A stretch of 64,000 nt of DNA from Terriglobia bacterium (GCA_028716525.1 JAQUPQ010000008.1:1-64000); one strand, 5' to 3'; shown: positions 37,703-56,247, numbered from the stretch's first letter. A program made the numbers and translations. The notes: a model not told the origin generated them from the letters alone.

Positions 37703-39064
37703 ATGACCGAATCGAATAAATTTTCCGAACTCAAAAATCTCAAGATCGACCGATCGGCGGGTTCCTCACAACCACCCCGATGGACTTCTCGATGGATTCT
37801 GACCGGAGTCATTCTCTTGGTGGTTCTGGGCCTGGCCATCACGGCGTTTCGCCTCTTCTCATCACCCGGGGCCGAGGTGGAAGTGGCGCGAGCCGTGGCC
37901 GACAGTTCTTCTTCAGAACCCGTGGTCTTGAACGCCGCCGGATACATCGTCGCGCACCATAAAATCAACGTGAACTCCAAAGTCACTGGCCGCATTGCCT
38001 GGATCGGGGTTGAAAAGGGCGACCATGTCAAGCAGGGCCAGGTCCTGGTCAAGTTGGAAGATCAGGAATTCAAAGCCCAGGTGGACCAGTCCCGCGGCGC
38101 CATGGACGCGGCGACGGCCCATCTCAAGGCATTGGAAACGGGATCGCGGCCCCAGGAGATCGATCAGGCGCGGCACAATTTGGAGCAGGCGCGCGCCAAT
38201 CTGGTCGACGCCAAACTTACTCTCGACCGCACCCGAGGGCTCGCGGGCGAAGGCATCTTTACAAAACAACAACTCGATGACGCCGTGGCGCGATACGACG
38301 CCGCCCAACAGCAGGTTCAAGCTTTGGAAAAAGCCTACGAGTTGGTGCATATCGGCCCGCGGCGCGAAGACATCGACCAGGCCCGCGGCGAGTATGTGCA
38401 GGCCAAAGGGCAATTCGATTACGCCAAAACGCTGCTGGAGGCCACGGAGATTCGCGCCCCGGTTAGCGGTACGATCTTGGAACGAACGGCGGAAAAAGGG
38501 GAATTGGTCACGGCCCAATTTGCCAGTGGCGCGGAAGGTGGACCCCGGGGATCGGTGGTGACCTTGGCCGATCTCGAGGACTTGCAGGTGGAACTCGACA
38601 TCAGCCAGGACGATTTTTCCAAACTCACTCCCAAACAGCAGGGCGTGGTTACGACCGACGCTTATCCCGATCGCAAATACGACGGCATCATCGACGAGAT
38701 TTCTCCGGAAGCCAATCGCCAGAAGGCCACGGTCCAGGTCAAAGTGAAAATACTCCGCCCCGACGATTACCTCCGGCCTGAAATGAACGCCAAGGTCGCA
38801 TTCCTGGCCGACGCTCCGACTACCAAAAATGCCGCCACTTCGGAAGTGATTGTCCCGACAGCCGCCGTGCGGGATTTTGAGGGCCGCAAAACGGTATTTA
38901 TTGCCTTTCAGGGCCGGGCAACGGCGCGCCCGGTTCGCGTTATCGGCCCGCGTTCCCGTGGAGTAGCCGTGGAAGGACTTACGGGTGGTGAAGACGTGGT
39001 TGTCAACGGACCCGCCGGCCTCAAGGACGGCGATAAAATTCAGGTGAAAGGACCCAAGAACTAA
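37703..39064 (+). CDS. HlyD/RND-type periplasmic adaptor subunit
   Basis: 453 aa; N-terminal TM, lipoyl-like halves, coiled coil, beta-barrel [23 protein letters not shown]. Confidence 0.92.
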
Positions 39065-51316: not shown

Positions 51317-51562
51317 TTACTGTGCCGTAGCGCCCAGGCTCTGCTTCAACGCGGCAATCAGGTCGCCTGCCTGAAAGCCTTTTTGACGCGCCGTGTCCTC
51401 AATGGATTGACTCGCCCCGCAGCATACATCCACGTTGAATCGATAGAAGATCGGTAGGGAGTCCGGATGACTCCGAAGAATCTCATTGATGGTTGAGGAC
51501 CCCGTAATTTCTTCCGCCATGGTTTGCTCCCTTTTCTCCCACTCCGCTTTCAGTGGGAACAT
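51317..51562 (-). CDS. Stand-alone ScdA_N/DUF542-type protein (RIC N-terminal-like)
   Basis: 81 aa; INEILRSHPDSLPIFYRFNVDVCCGASQSIEDTARQKG, the CCG-containing ScdA_N pattern without a hemerythrin domain; likely start MAEEITG. Confidence 0.82.
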   Translation of the reverse strand: MFPLKAEWEKREQTMAEEITGSSTINEILRSHPDSLPIFYRFNVDVCCGASQSIEDTARQKGFQAGDLIAALKQSLGATAQ

Positions 51563-51909
51563 GTGCCGGCGCCAGCCGGTGCCGGAATGATCGTAGCCAG
51601 AATATTGATCGATTCGTTCTCCGCAGCCCGCATGCCATGAATCTCCAGCGGCTCGAAAAACATCAAATCGTCTTTGCTGACGCTGTATTCTTCTTCTCCC
51701 TTGCGAATGAACCCGGCGCCGTCAACCACGTGCATAACGACGCAGGCATTCGCCTTGTGAGGTTCCACCGCCTGACCCGCGTTGAGATTGAACAGCACCA
51801 CACGACAAGGGGTGCAGTCGTGCAGCAATCGTGCCGTGTAGCCGTCGGGACGAAAGTCCTGTGCCGATTTCCAGTTTGTTTTGCTCATTAGCGCATCCTT
51901 CCTTTCCAA
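51550..51909 (-). CDS. Cupin-domain protein
   Basis: 119 aa; double-stranded beta-helix pattern LFNLNAGQAVEPHKANACVVMHVVDGAGFIRKGEEEYSVSKDDLMFFEPLEIHGMRA. Confidence 0.85.
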   Translation of the reverse strand: MERKDALMSKTNWKSAQDFRPDGYTARLLHDCTPCRVVLFNLNAGQAVEPHKANACVVMHVVDGAGFIRKGEEEYSVSKDDLMFFEPLEIHGMRAAENESINILATIIPAPAGAGTCSH

Positions 51910-51921
51910 AAATCTTTTCCC

Positions 51922-53739
51922 TCATGCCGCCGATTGGCTCGCCAACATGTCGCGCACCTTGTTCAGTGTGCTCACCAACAAGCGGGCATCGAGATTCTTT
52001 ATCCGGGCCGCTTGCTCGACCGTAACGGCATGAGCCATGGTTTTTCTCAAAACCGGATTCCGAAGTTGATCGAAACCAAAATTCAAGAACACATCCAGGG
52101 TGGCGGGGTAACTGGCCAATACCTGCGCCACGGTCCAGGAAGCACTAATGGGGCCCGCCATTTTCTTTTCGACCGCCGCCCGTACATCCGCCCTGCCTTG
52201 AATCGTGGCCACCAGGTTGTACGCGAACAGGCACAGGCCGATTAATTCGAAATAGCCTGAGGTTCCCGCGACCAGGAACATCGATTTTCCAAACGGCACC
52301 GTCAGCGCTTGAAATGCGACGCGCAGCAAATTTCCTGCGGTCATGAATACGAAAGCGGCATTCAGCAACCGGGTGCTGTAGATGCGATGTCCCGTGAAGA
52401 CCGGCACGATGCGGTTGGAATAACCCATGATCATCATGGTGATGAATCCCACGGTCAGGGCGTGCCGATAGGCCCCCATCAACGCATGGGCCACCACTTG
52501 CCCCGTCATGAATTGATAAATCGAAAAACTGAAAATCATGACGGTCGCAGCCGCCAGCCAGGCATAGGATTGATAAACAAATTTCTCGTAATCGCGCGGC
52601 AGCGGAGTGCCGCTGAGATCCACTGTTGATTTCCCAAAAATGTGGAGATTGTAGATGAACCCGACAATGGCCAGAAGTTCCACGCTTGCCGAAGCCAGCA
52701 GCAAGCCCCGTGCCCAGGGAGTCGCCGCCTGGTGCATCATCAAATCGGCCGCCATGCGAGCCATCAAAGCCGCGTTCCATGAGCCAAACACCCAACGATC
52801 CAGGGTGTTATTGGGGGATTTCTTTCCCATGAACACGCCCACGGTCCTGCGGCCGATCCCGAAAATGAACATTGTGATGAATCCATCGAGCTGAAGGTGG
52901 CGCAACGACCAGTTCAAGGCCTCTGGAATGGAGTTGGAATTCTGCGCCGCCATCGTCATCACAATTCCGACATTGGCCAGTCCCATGAGAAGGAACCAGG
53001 TCGATCCGGCCATCAAGTATTTTTCGAAACCCTCGTTGGATTGGGGCGAGGACTGCAGTGTTTTGAGGATAATCAAAACGAATAGACCGATGGCCACCAA
53101 CTCCAACAGCGCGGAGGTGATCACGATTCCCGCAATGTGAGTGTTCCCCGCCATCAGGGGTTGAAAAATTCCCCGCAGCAGCACCCCGGCAGCCATTAGA
53201 ACAAACGACGTTTCCGCAAAAAATTCATTCCACAGTTTTGTGGCTTTCATCCGCGGAACCACGTGATAGGCCACGCCCATGATAAATAACGAAACCCAGC
53301 CGAAAATCTGCACGTGTCCGTGGGCTTGGTTGGAGGGATCCAGCCACTTGGGAAAATCGCGGTGAATGGCAATGAGGGTGAGATTGATGACGCCCCACAC
53401 CACGCCGCCGGTCAAGGTGAAGGCCAGGGCGGCAAAGATGAATCGTTTATACAGCGGTATTTCTTGAGGCCCTTGCGCTGAAGCTTCCTTTTGCAGCGGT
53501 TCAGTCCGGATGAACTCCTTGACTTCCGAAATCAAGGTTTGGGGATTGATGTTGTGAACCACGGCAAACCATTGCAGCGGCTCGTCGGGCCCGCGCTCTC
53601 CGCCGCAGCCCATAAGCCCGTAACGAGTGAACAGCTCCACGGTTTGAGGAAAGGCGGCAATAATGGCGCGAATGTTGGTGTTCGAGCCGATCGCATCCAC
53701 CGTCAAAACTTCATTTTCTTTCGCGAGCGATGTGCTCAT
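51922..53739 (-). CDS. NnrS-like polytopic membrane protein with DUF1858-type domains at both ends
   Basis: 605 aa; N-terminal FPQTVELFTRYGLMGCGGERGPDEPLQ, ~12 TM core with NQAHGHVQIFGWVSLFIMGVAYHVVPR, C-terminal YPATLDVFLNFGFDQLRNPVLRKTMAHAVTVEQAARIKNLD. Confidence 0.8.
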   Translation of the reverse strand: MSTSLAKENEVLTVDAIGSNTNIRAIIAAFPQTVELFTRYGLMGCGGERGPDEPLQWFAVVHNINPQTLISEVKEFIRTEPLQKEASAQGPQEIPLYKRFIFAALAFTLTGGVVWGVINLTLIAIHRDFPKWLDPSNQAHGHVQIFGWVSLFIMGVAYHVVPRMKATKLWNEFFAETSFVLMAAGVLLRGIFQPLMAGNTHIAGIVITSALLELVAIGLFVLIILKTLQSSPQSNEGFEKYLMAGSTWFLLMGLANVGIVMTMAAQNSNSIPEALNWSLRHLQLDGFITMFIFGIGRRTVGVFMGKKSPNNTLDRWVFGSWNAALMARMAADLMMHQAATPWARGLLLASASVELLAIVGFIYNLHIFGKSTVDLSGTPLPRDYEKFVYQSYAWLAAATVMIFSFSIYQFMTGQVVAHALMGAYRHALTVGFITMMIMGYSNRIVPVFTGHRIYSTRLLNAAFVFMTAGNLLRVAFQALTVPFGKSMFLVAGTSGYFELIGLCLFAYNLVATIQGRADVRAAVEKKMAGPISASWTVAQVLASYPATLDVFLNFGFDQLRNPVLRKTMAHAVTVEQAARIKNLDARLLVSTLNKVRDMLASQSAA

Positions 53740-53775
53740 ATCCTTCTCCTGAGAAGATCCTCAATTCACAGGAAA

Positions 53776-53781
53776 AGGATA
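53776..53781 (-). promoter_or_regulatory. Putative -10 element of the NnrS-like operon
   Basis: TATCCT on the minus strand, 23 nt downstream of the TGAC-N4-GTCA box; 4/6 match to TATAAT. Confidence 0.5.
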
Positions 53782-53804
53782 TCCCTGGACCTTTTTGGGG
53801 GCCA

Positions 53805-53816
53805 TGACTTATGTCA
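53805..53816 (-). promoter_or_regulatory. FNR/DNR-like palindromic box
   Basis: TGACataaGTCA (minus strand), about 66-77 nt upstream of the NnrS-like start codon. Confidence 0.6.
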
Positions 53817-53823
53817 CGAGAAG

Positions 53824-53896
53824 AAGTTGGGGACAGACACCTTCAGTCCAAGAATCCCTCGATTCTTTCAAAAACTGGTGTCTGTCCCCGGAGTGG
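53824..53896. repeat. Palindromic repeat copy A (GGGGACAGACACC family)
   Basis: GGGGACAGACACC ... GGTGTCTGTCCCC perfect 13-bp arms; near-identical to 54111-54183. Confidence 0.9.
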
Positions 53897-54158
53897 CATC
53901 GCGCTCTCGGCGGTGGCCTATCCGAAGGATCACAACATCATGGCCCAAGAGCGCGAAGATGACTCGGTAGTCCCCCACCCGAAATTTCCTCAGCCCGGCA
54001 AACGGCCCTCTCAGAAGCGGATACTTCTCGGCGTTCTTTGACAATTCTGCTTCAATGCGATCCAGCACGCGACGGGCTTCGCCCCTGGACAGCTTCTTAA
54101 GGTCGCGGAAAAGTTGGGGACAGACACCTTCAGTCCAAGAATCCCTCGATTCTTTCAT
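53868..54158 (-). pseudogene. RelE/ParE-type toxin fragment embedded between two palindromic repeats
   Basis: Core FRDLKKLSRGEARRVLDRIEAELSKNAEKYPLLRGPFAGLRKFRVGDYRVIFALLGHDVVILRIGHRRE is RelE-like; N- and C-terminal residues come from the flanking repeats; no adjacent antitoxin ORF. Confidence 0.7.
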
Positions 54159-54183
54159 AGATTGGTGTCTGTCCCCGGAGTGG
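54111..54183. repeat. Palindromic repeat copy B (GGGGACAGACACC family)
   Basis: GGGGACAGACACC ... GGTGTCTGTCCCC; direct repeat of copy A, differing mainly in the loop-proximal segment (aaaaact vs tagatt). Confidence 0.9.
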
Positions 54184-54349
54184 TAGGTCGGAACTGAATC
54201 ATCCCCCAGCTTCCGTTGGGGGAATTAGCGCCGCTCACCCTTTAGCGTCAATTTCTCTTCGGTTGATGCGTATGCGCAAGGCGGGATCCGAGCTACCAGA
54301 AATCAGCGCAATAGAAGTCGGTGGAAATGAGAGCAACGGCGTGATGAGC

Positions 54350-55042
54350 CTATTTCTTGAGCCCGGAGGCGATTTCTTTGAGTTCAGGGAGAGAATGAAC
54401 GGTGATGTGTCGGCCGTCGGTGGAAATTAGTTTTTCATCCTGAAAACGGCCGAGCGTGCGCGACACCAGTTCACGGACTGTACCCAACTGGGCGGCAATC
54501 TCCTGCTGAGAATACGCCAGTTCAAACTCGACCCCGGCGCCGGTTTTACGACCTTTGCCTTCCGCCAACGTGACCAGCCGCCGAGCCAAGCGTTGACTGA
54601 CTTCTTTCAATGATAATTCCTCCACCAACATGACCATTCTCCGCAAACGCATGCTGAGGGAGCGGATGACCGCCATGGCGATTTCGGGATGTTGTCGCAG
54701 GGTGGCATCGAAATCGCGCCGTGAAATGAAGAGCAGCTCCGCCTCGTCGACGCATTGCGCGGCCGCCGGATACTTTCCTCCGTCAAACAGCGGCAGCTCC
54801 GCGACCGGCGTTCCCGGCAATTGCATGTCCAGGGATTGTTCGCGTCCGCTCGCAGAGCACTTCAAAATCCTCACGGCGCCCCGCACCACCACAAACAAAC
54901 CTTTGCATTCGTCGCCCTCTGCAAACAGGAATTCGCCTTTGCCGTAGGTTTTCTCAACCGCGTGCTGAGCCAGCGCCGCAATTTCAGTCTCGCCCAGCTC
55001 GTGAAAGAAGGGAACGCGTTTTAAGAGTGCGGTTTTATCCAT
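54350..55042 (-). CDS. Crp/Fnr family transcriptional regulator (DNR-like, no N-terminal Fe-S cysteines)
   Basis: 230 aa from MDKTALLKRVPFFHEL; cNMP-binding fold, HTH SQQEIAAQLGTVRELVSRTLGRFQDEKLI with ExxSR recognition-helix pattern. Confidence 0.92.
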   Translation of the reverse strand: MDKTALLKRVPFFHELGETEIAALAQHAVEKTYGKGEFLFAEGDECKGLFVVVRGAVRILKCSASGREQSLDMQLPGTPVAELPLFDGGKYPAAAQCVDEAELLFISRRDFDATLRQHPEIAMAVIRSLSMRLRRMVMLVEELSLKEVSQRLARRLVTLAEGKGRKTGAGVEFELAYSQQEIAAQLGTVRELVSRTLGRFQDEKLISTDGRHITVHSLPELKEIASGLKK

Positions 55043-55178
55043 GGAACTCTCCTTCCTGCACACCGACAAATATGATTTGTGGAACCTTTTGTCTCGTTTA
55101 GTTTATCTAATTCAAGGGGGATGTTCAAAGGGCAGCTCTTGGCAATATGGATGGGTCCTGGTCGAAATGCCTGAAGAA

Positions 55179-55320
55179 CTCACCGCGGAGACGCCGAGAT
55201 GCGCAGAGGCCATAAAGGTCAGAGCACGAGAACGAGTTCATTCCAAAATCTGGCGGAGACTTTTTAAGTAATTATTTCATTTCAGCGCAACCTCTGCGAA
55301 CTTTGCGTCTCTGCGGTGAG
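55179..55320. repeat. Gene-less inverted-repeat element
   Basis: CTCACCGCGGAGACGCCGAGATGCGCAGAGG (55179-55209) versus CCTCTGCGAACTTTGCGTCTCTGCGGTGAG (55291-55320), imperfect complementary arms of ~30 bp. Confidence 0.75.
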
Positions 55321-55344
55321 CATATCTTCACTCCTCCGAATTTG

Positions 55345-55356
55345 TGACAAAAGTCA
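55345..55356 (+). promoter_or_regulatory. FNR/DNR-like palindromic box
   Basis: TGACaaaaGTCA, 22 nt upstream of TATAAT. Confidence 0.65.
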
Positions 55357-55378
55357 TCTAGCCGCTGGTTGGAGGAAT

Positions 55379-55384
55379 TATAAT
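55379..55384 (+). promoter_or_regulatory. Putative -10 element of the YwiC-like gene
   Basis: TATAAT 22 nt downstream of the TGAC-N4-GTCA box. Confidence 0.65.
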
Positions 55385-55407
55385 CGCACCGCATGAGTTC
55401 GTACTGA

Positions 55408-56247
55408 ATGAACGTTTTTGAGGAATCCGAAGAACCCCTCATGACACTCAAGCACATGCTTCCGAAAGAGCACGGCACTTGGGCCATGCTGTTGGCGCCC
55501 TGGATAGTGGGTTGTGGAGTAGCCCGGCGTTTCGATCACGCCGCTCTGCTCTCGCTGGCGGCCATTCTGATGTTCTTTCTGGCGCAGAATCAGATGATGA
55601 ACTGGATGCGGCTGCATTTTGCCAACCAACCGGATTCCAACGCTCTCCGGCGAACCGAGCTTTTGCTGCTGGTGTTTGGCTTGATCGGAATTCTGATTGT
55701 TTCGCCCCTGTGGGTGGTCGACAAACTGCACGGGCTGATTTATTTCGCGCTCCTGGCGTTGCTTCTGACCGCCGCTGCCCTCTTCCTGGTTCAAAAAAAG
55801 AAGGACCGCTCGATCGCCGGGCAGATTCTGGCGGCCGCCGGGCTGTCGTTGAGCGCGCCGTTGGCTTACTACTCCACTTCACGCACTCTTGACCACAACG
55901 CGGGGATTCTGTGGCTGGTGAATTTCCTCTTCTTTTTGGGCGGGGTGTTTTACGTTCAGATGAAGATTGATGCCCTGGCACGAAGAAAATCCTTCCAACG
56001 CTTGTCCGACAGGTTCCGATTTGCCGCTGGGACGTTGGTGATGGACTCACTTCTTGTTCTGGTGGCCTTCGGATCCCTGCGATGGAGCTCTTTCTCCGGC
56101 TGGGCCACTTTGGCATTCGCGCCCACAGCCATTCAGGCGATCGCCGGAACAATCCGTCTCGACCACCCCGCTGTTTTGAAACGTGTCGGAATCATCTCCA
56201 CGATTCATTCCATCCTTTTTGTCGCCCTTTTCATCATCTTGGCTTGA
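55408..56247 (+). CDS. YwiC-like membrane protein
   Basis: 279 aa; MLPKEHGTWAMLLAPWIVGCG N-terminal motif and ~8 TM segments; alternative start at 55441. Confidence 0.85.
   Translation: MNVFEESEEPLMTLKHMLPKEHGTWAMLLAPWIVGCGVARRFDHAALLSLAAILMFFLAQNQMMNWMRLHFANQPDSNALRRTELLLLVFGLIGILIVSPLWVVDKLHGLIYFALLALLLTAAALFLVQKKKDRSIAGQILAAAGLSLSAPLAYYSTSRTLDHNAGILWLVNFLFFLGGVFYVQMKIDALARRKSFQRLSDRFRFAAGTLVMDSLLVLVAFGSLRWSSFSGWATLAFAPTAIQAIAGTIRLDHPAVLKRVGIISTIHSILFVALFIILA

Follow-up and report, generated by a model that had tools for sequence, protein, structure and literature searches.

A probable NO or low-oxygen response regulon under a Crp/Fnr-family regulator at a Terriglobia locus

Here, we describe a locus of Terriglobia bacterium (GCA_028716525.1 JAQUPQ010000008.1:1-64000) in which a Crp/Fnr-family regulator gene lies beside genes for an NnrS-like membrane protein, a small cupin, a stand-alone ScdA_N protein and a YwiC-like membrane protein, and we consider whether these form a regulon responding to nitric oxide (NO) or low oxygen. 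The window is the whole stretch of 64,000 nucleotides (nt) that was analysed, and coordinates refer to it throughout. The locus comprises the following features.

51317-51520, minus strand: stand-alone ScdA_N protein, 67 amino acids, DxCCG motif (Pfam E 9e-8; D31, C33 and C34 invariant against RIC)
51550-51888, minus strand: small cupin, 112 amino acids (Pfam AraC_binding/Cupin_2)
51922-53739, minus strand: DUF1858-NnrS-DUF1858 membrane protein, 605 amino acids (Pfam; relatives in family f4 are ~33% identical and have boxes upstream)
53776-53781, minus strand: -10 hexamer TATCCT of the NnrS promoter, starting +30 from the box centre and predicting a box at -41.5
53805-53816, minus strand: putative regulator box of the NnrS operon, TGACTTATGTCA, read on the minus strand as TGACATAAGTCA (exact pattern; conserved motif)
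54350-55042, minus strand: Crp/Fnr-family regulator with RExxSR recognition helix, GTVRELVSR (Pfam cNMP_binding and HTH_Crp_2)
55345-55356, plus strand: putative regulator box of the YwiC promoter, TGACAAAAGTCA (exact pattern; boxes beside the regulator also in family members G001 and G002)
55379-55384, plus strand: -10 hexamer TATAAT of the YwiC promoter, starting +29 from the box centre and predicting a box at -40.5
55408-56247, plus strand: YwiC-like membrane protein, 279 amino acids, alternative start 55441 (Pfam YwiC)

The NnrS and YwiC domains score above their Pfam cut-offs (41.2 versus 28 bits and 67.4 versus 25 bits), DUF1858 is found twice in the NnrS protein, and the regulator belongs to the Crp/Fnr superfamily by its beta roll and Crp helix-turn-helix (70.5 and 66.3 bits). 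The ScdA_N protein, at 32.1 bits, falls slightly below the cut-off of 32.5; it also gives weak matches to RIC models and retains the D and CC of the RIC motif. The YwiC gene is divergent from the regulator gene, and the other three genes form a minus-strand trio. The first-pass annotation, made from the sequence alone, had given the trio a 12-nt gap followed by an overlap. The genes and their order stand, while that spacing, which hinges on distal start codons, does not: a Shine-Dalgarno-like GGAAAGGA precedes the cupin ATG (51888) and GGGAG precedes the ScdA_N ATG (51520), and with these starts the gaps are 33 and 29 nt.

The same annotation had reported a perfect TGAC-N4-GTCA palindrome with a -10 hexamer at each of the two outer promoters, and both were confirmed in the sequence. 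To place them in a wider context, a scan with the regulator protein was used, which recovered orthologues 37-78% identical through much of the class and yielded 80 named regulator loci, almost all of them carrying the label Acidobacteria or Terriglobia. Palindromes were then counted de novo, with 256 four-base half-sites and spacers of 0-12 (3,328 combinations), in the 400-nt flanks of 75 non-redundant loci. Although no motif was assumed, TGAC-N4-GTCA came top, being present at 41 of the 75 loci, with the runner-up at 16. An exact box lies within 400 nt of the regulator at 43 of 78 loci, against 0.65 expected after local shuffling, which disposes of the concern that the box is no more frequent than chance. 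Boxes with one mismatch number 66 at the regulator loci against 20.4 expected, an excess that suggests degenerate sites.

Alignment of 39 non-redundant boxes gives GTGACAWAAGTCATCGGC, with G at position -7 in 38 of them and column counts that reveal TAnnnT at +30 to +35. Of 38 non-redundant boxes lying downstream of the regulator, 32 have a TAnnnT that begins at exactly +30 relative to the box centre; at other offsets the mean is 0.03 and none occurs in more than one of the 38. If the hexamer occupies -12 to -7, a start at +30 centres the box on -41.5, where class II activators sit, and with a -10 present these are class II promoters by their predicted starts. A class II arrangement had been guessed for the window, with the box near -40.5, and it is borne out across the class: the NnrS promoter has exactly the family value of -41.5, and the earlier figure holds for the YwiC promoter, which is one base shorter. 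Some promoters carry two boxes ~20 to 150 nt apart (L033, L034, L035, L163, L197), and such pairs may reflect tandem or divergent control. Upstream of the box, between -20 and -17 relative to its centre, we also see a T-rich stretch, with T in 23-24 of 39 boxes at two columns, which the alpha subunit of the polymerase may contact.

Within the 4.2 Mb genome of the window there are 86 exact TGAC-N4-GTCA sites, compared with 23 for a reversed-pattern control, and the window itself holds a third one, GC-cored, at 37800. Restricting the core to NWWN leaves 25 boxes versus 3 in the control. When TAnnnT is added 22-25 nt downstream and RTCA is allowed, 17 sites remain versus 3 control matches. Four of the 17 are AT-cored, intergenic and facing a gene start, namely those of NnrS, YwiC, a stand-alone hemerythrin (C42:21563) and an ApbC/Mrp iron-sulphur (Fe-S) carrier (C53:9901), and their -10 elements start at +30, +29, +30 and +30, respectively. 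The composite promoter of the ApbC/Mrp gene (L061 4001-4012, G000:C53:9901) is divergent from an ABC transporter, and the transporter side of this site is doubtful, with CAAACT at the -10 place. Boxes at C1:92248, C19:19840, C19:60105 and C23:47950 were set aside together with the GC-cored ones examined, being mostly intragenic. The BioY/ferredoxin box (C25:21632) was not counted, as it has no -10 at +30 towards BioY and its TAnnnT faces the opposite way, towards a gene end. In the stretches examined, no exact box was found upstream of the genome's second NnrS paralogue (C19:1958) or its second and third hemerythrins (C42:30425, C5:134921).

The genes that lie downstream of the box in relatives are RIC (ScdA_N-hemerythrin), NnrS, single-domain hemerythrin and YwiC. 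RIC is the commonest (ScdA_N 67.6 and hemerythrin 79.1 bits in one example), and YwiC follows the box at further regulator loci, including those of other families. Within the family of our genome, G001 has the box between the regulator and YwiC with its -10 reading towards YwiC; the same box, with its -10, stands next to the regulator of G002, on a contig that ends before the gene; and in both, the orthologue of our hemerythrin (47-48% identical) has a box with TAAGAT at about +30. The f4 orthologues of the DUF1858-NnrS protein have one or two boxes upstream. At G020:C306 (f4; L031/L236), a stand-alone ScdA_N gene precedes the DUF1858-NnrS gene, single-domain hemerythrin and DUF2249 genes are divergent, and there is one box per side. 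In another class of the phylum, G172:C65 (L321) carries the regulator, a box with its -10 at +30, and hemerythrin-like and YwiC-like genes, which we named by eye from their sequences, in one operon. The box is thus conserved upstream of orthologues of all four kinds: NnrS in f4, RIC throughout the class, YwiC in our own and other families, and hemerythrin in our own family. A box with TAnnnT also precedes a multiheme cytochrome/QrcB-like molybdopterin operon (L290, G041:C25:150872), which suggests that respiratory genes may belong to the f4 regulon, and a NapH-like ferredoxin protein gene in relatives is box-preceded as well. TIGR04053 radical SAM/SPASM genes, related to enzymes of heme b and heme d1 synthesis, were seen next to regulator orthologues or boxes at L291, L195 and L197.

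The regulator has none of the FNR [4Fe-4S] cysteine cluster, C46 being the sole near-invariant cysteine shared by the window protein. The Arg-Ser of the CRP cyclic AMP (cAMP) pocket is absent too; where that pocket lies in CRP, an invariant Pro-Ala (P92, A93) is found. C46 is conserved in 79 of 81 regulator sequences and H118 in 80, and both could be sensing residues, a lead for further work. DNR is among the closest solved structures by PDB profile scores. The recognition helix GTVRELVSR is invariant in the 81 sequences, a figure that is biased because these were found in part by a peptide pattern over the same helix; an unbiased protein search recovers the helix in nearly all closer orthologues, with small changes in the ones that are most distant. 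The genome encodes six clear Crp/Fnr proteins, and the local regulator is the only one with the RExxSR helix. In Crp/Fnr helices, R180 pairs with G3 of the half-site and E181 with A6 (Rodionov and colleagues, PMC1274295), and R190-E191 of the regulator, together with the G at -7, conform to this rule.

Since many related species share the regulator, the box and the promoter spacing, the circuit of this soil acidobacterium looks real. The conserved helix, box adjacency and spacing strongly support, by comparison, the earlier proposal that the local regulator would control both units. We consider it very probable that a regulon conserved across Acidobacteriota has its core at this locus, and that in it a class II Crp/Fnr activator would act on box promoters of genes for coping with NO or low oxygen. 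An activator with neither FNR-type cysteines nor a CRP-type cAMP pocket would bind GTGAC-N4-GTCAY boxes centred at -41.5 (-40.5 at YwiC). The box would occupy the -35 region, with the TAnnnT -10 at a fixed distance, and the bound activator would touch RNA polymerase as in class II. It would turn on NnrS, YwiC and a split RIC, meaning ScdA_N and a separate di-iron hemerythrin working together in trans, and probably the ApbC/Mrp Fe-S carrier. Gene content suggests that the regulon responds to NO or low oxygen; the identity of the targets makes NO or nitrosative damage the most likely trigger, possibly together with low oxygen.

The genome has a single ScdA_N match, the stand-alone protein of the NnrS operon, and three hemerythrins elsewhere. 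No fused RIC, with both domains on one protein, was found in this genome, which is 96% complete, so that a missed copy is still conceivable. The box-controlled hemerythrin keeps the di-iron ligands H60, E64, H90, H126 and E130, and the two signatures of RIC, the CC motif and the di-iron site, are therefore both retained, on separate proteins. Their placement under the same box suggests joint action.

Several observations count against this picture. No exact box lies near the regulator at 35 of the 78 loci, and two Crp/Fnr paralogues of the same genome have RETVTR helices, for which TGTGA-type sites are also possible targets. The regulator and the hemerythrin occur in family members G001 and G002 (YwiC also in G001), but neither genome gave a match to NnrS or ScdA_N, so that the trio could have been acquired later instead of representing a split RIC; separate acquisition of ScdA_N and hemerythrin and their joint action as a split RIC are equally possible. 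The cupin lacks a conserved association: a search for one with NnrS or the regulator gave nothing beyond weak hits at three further regulator loci, and its structural relatives are remote and TM1459-like. It belongs to the operon by position only and may be a passenger.

Our literature search found no paper describing an NO-type regulon in Acidobacteriota, and searches on YwiC with fnr and on ScdA with NnrS returned no relevant paper. The regulon is apparently undescribed, a hybrid-motif variant of DNR/HcpR-type regulons. DNR of Pseudomonas and beta-proteobacteria is likewise a Crp/Fnr protein with NO-type targets (dnrN/RIC, nnrS); it differs in that no nir, nor or nos target was seen here. 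DNR sites are FNR-like, unlike the present boxes. The label ‘DNR-like’ given in the first-pass annotation fits as far as the target set goes. HcpR of Desulfovibrio, Geobacter and Desulfuromonas is a Crp/Fnr protein without Fe-S cysteines that recognizes TGTGA-N6-TCACA or TTGAC-N4-GTCAA, and among the genes it controls are those for ferredoxin, hemerythrin and, in rare cases, RIC (PMC1274295). The likeness to HcpR, compared by features rather than orthology, lies in the missing Fe-S cysteines, the related sites and the overlapping targets. However, the motif here is a hybrid that combines the G at -7 of the CRP-like form with the inner C/G of the TTGAC form, and no hcp target was seen near the regulator, where no specific search for one was made. 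NnrR of alpha-proteobacteria also targets a DUF1858 gene and nnrS, the latter lying divergent or adjacent (PMC6710368, PMC1274295), but its motif is TTGcg-N4-cgCAA. The RIC/YtfE/ScdA di-iron proteins (PMC9268430) share the CC motif of ScdA_N and the hemerythrin di-iron ligands, both under the box here; the domains are fused in most relatives and separate in this genome.

The rival explanation that fares best accepts the regulon and changes its signal to oxygen limitation or general redox state, with RIC, NnrS, hemerythrin and YwiC serving microaerobic life and NO protection being secondary. In relatives, boxes precede the multiheme cytochrome/QrcB-like operon and the NapH-like gene, which would be compatible with an oxygen or redox signal, and the near-invariant C46 could be a redox switch. 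However, the commonest targets, RIC and NnrS, are the classical NO-response core of NsrR, DNR and NnrR regulons (PMC1274295), and the FNR cysteine cluster is missing. We regard this explanation as possible and lean against it. Binding by another Crp/Fnr protein of the genome, with the neighbouring regulator merely co-located, seems to us quite improbable: the genome has six clear Crp/Fnr proteins, and the two RETVTR helices could read TGTGA half-sites, but the RExxSR helix is confined to the local protein, and the box adjoins regulator orthologues in many families and another class of the phylum. The genome holds 86 such sites, and most of those examined are intragenic, but that the window boxes are chance palindromes is extremely unlikely given their position, -10 spacing and conservation at orthologues.

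More tentatively, and with rather less than even confidence, we suggest that the regulators are an undescribed, phylum-wide Crp/Fnr clade with a hybrid CRP/HcpR motif that would be the main activator of the response to NO and Fe-S damage in Acidobacteriota, with RIC here split into co-induced ScdA_N and hemerythrin acting in trans and YwiC newly counted among the genes of the NO response. NO and low oxygen are everyday conditions in soils, where Acidobacteriota abound, and the sharp promoter definition (a box with TAnnnT at +30) makes the regulon predictable in any acidobacterial genome. YwiC, for which we found no described function, gains a physiological context, and the locus offers an experiment of nature on whether the RIC domains can function as two separate polypeptides.

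The region between the regulator and the NnrS box contains further features outside the regulon, which the first-pass annotation did not mention.

53829-53889, strand not assigned: REP-like palindrome copy 1, GGGGACAGACACC...GGTGTCTGTCCCC
53868-54158, minus strand: ParE-like toxin gene, no antitoxin visible (Pfam ParE_toxin 44 bits; flanking repeats)
54116-54176, strand not assigned: REP-like palindrome copy 2

The two REP-like palindromes, each ~61 bp with GGGGACAGACACC ends, bracket the ParE-like gene (53829-54176). This unit, which separates the regulator from the NnrS box and lies 12 bp from the box, is probably an insertion between them.

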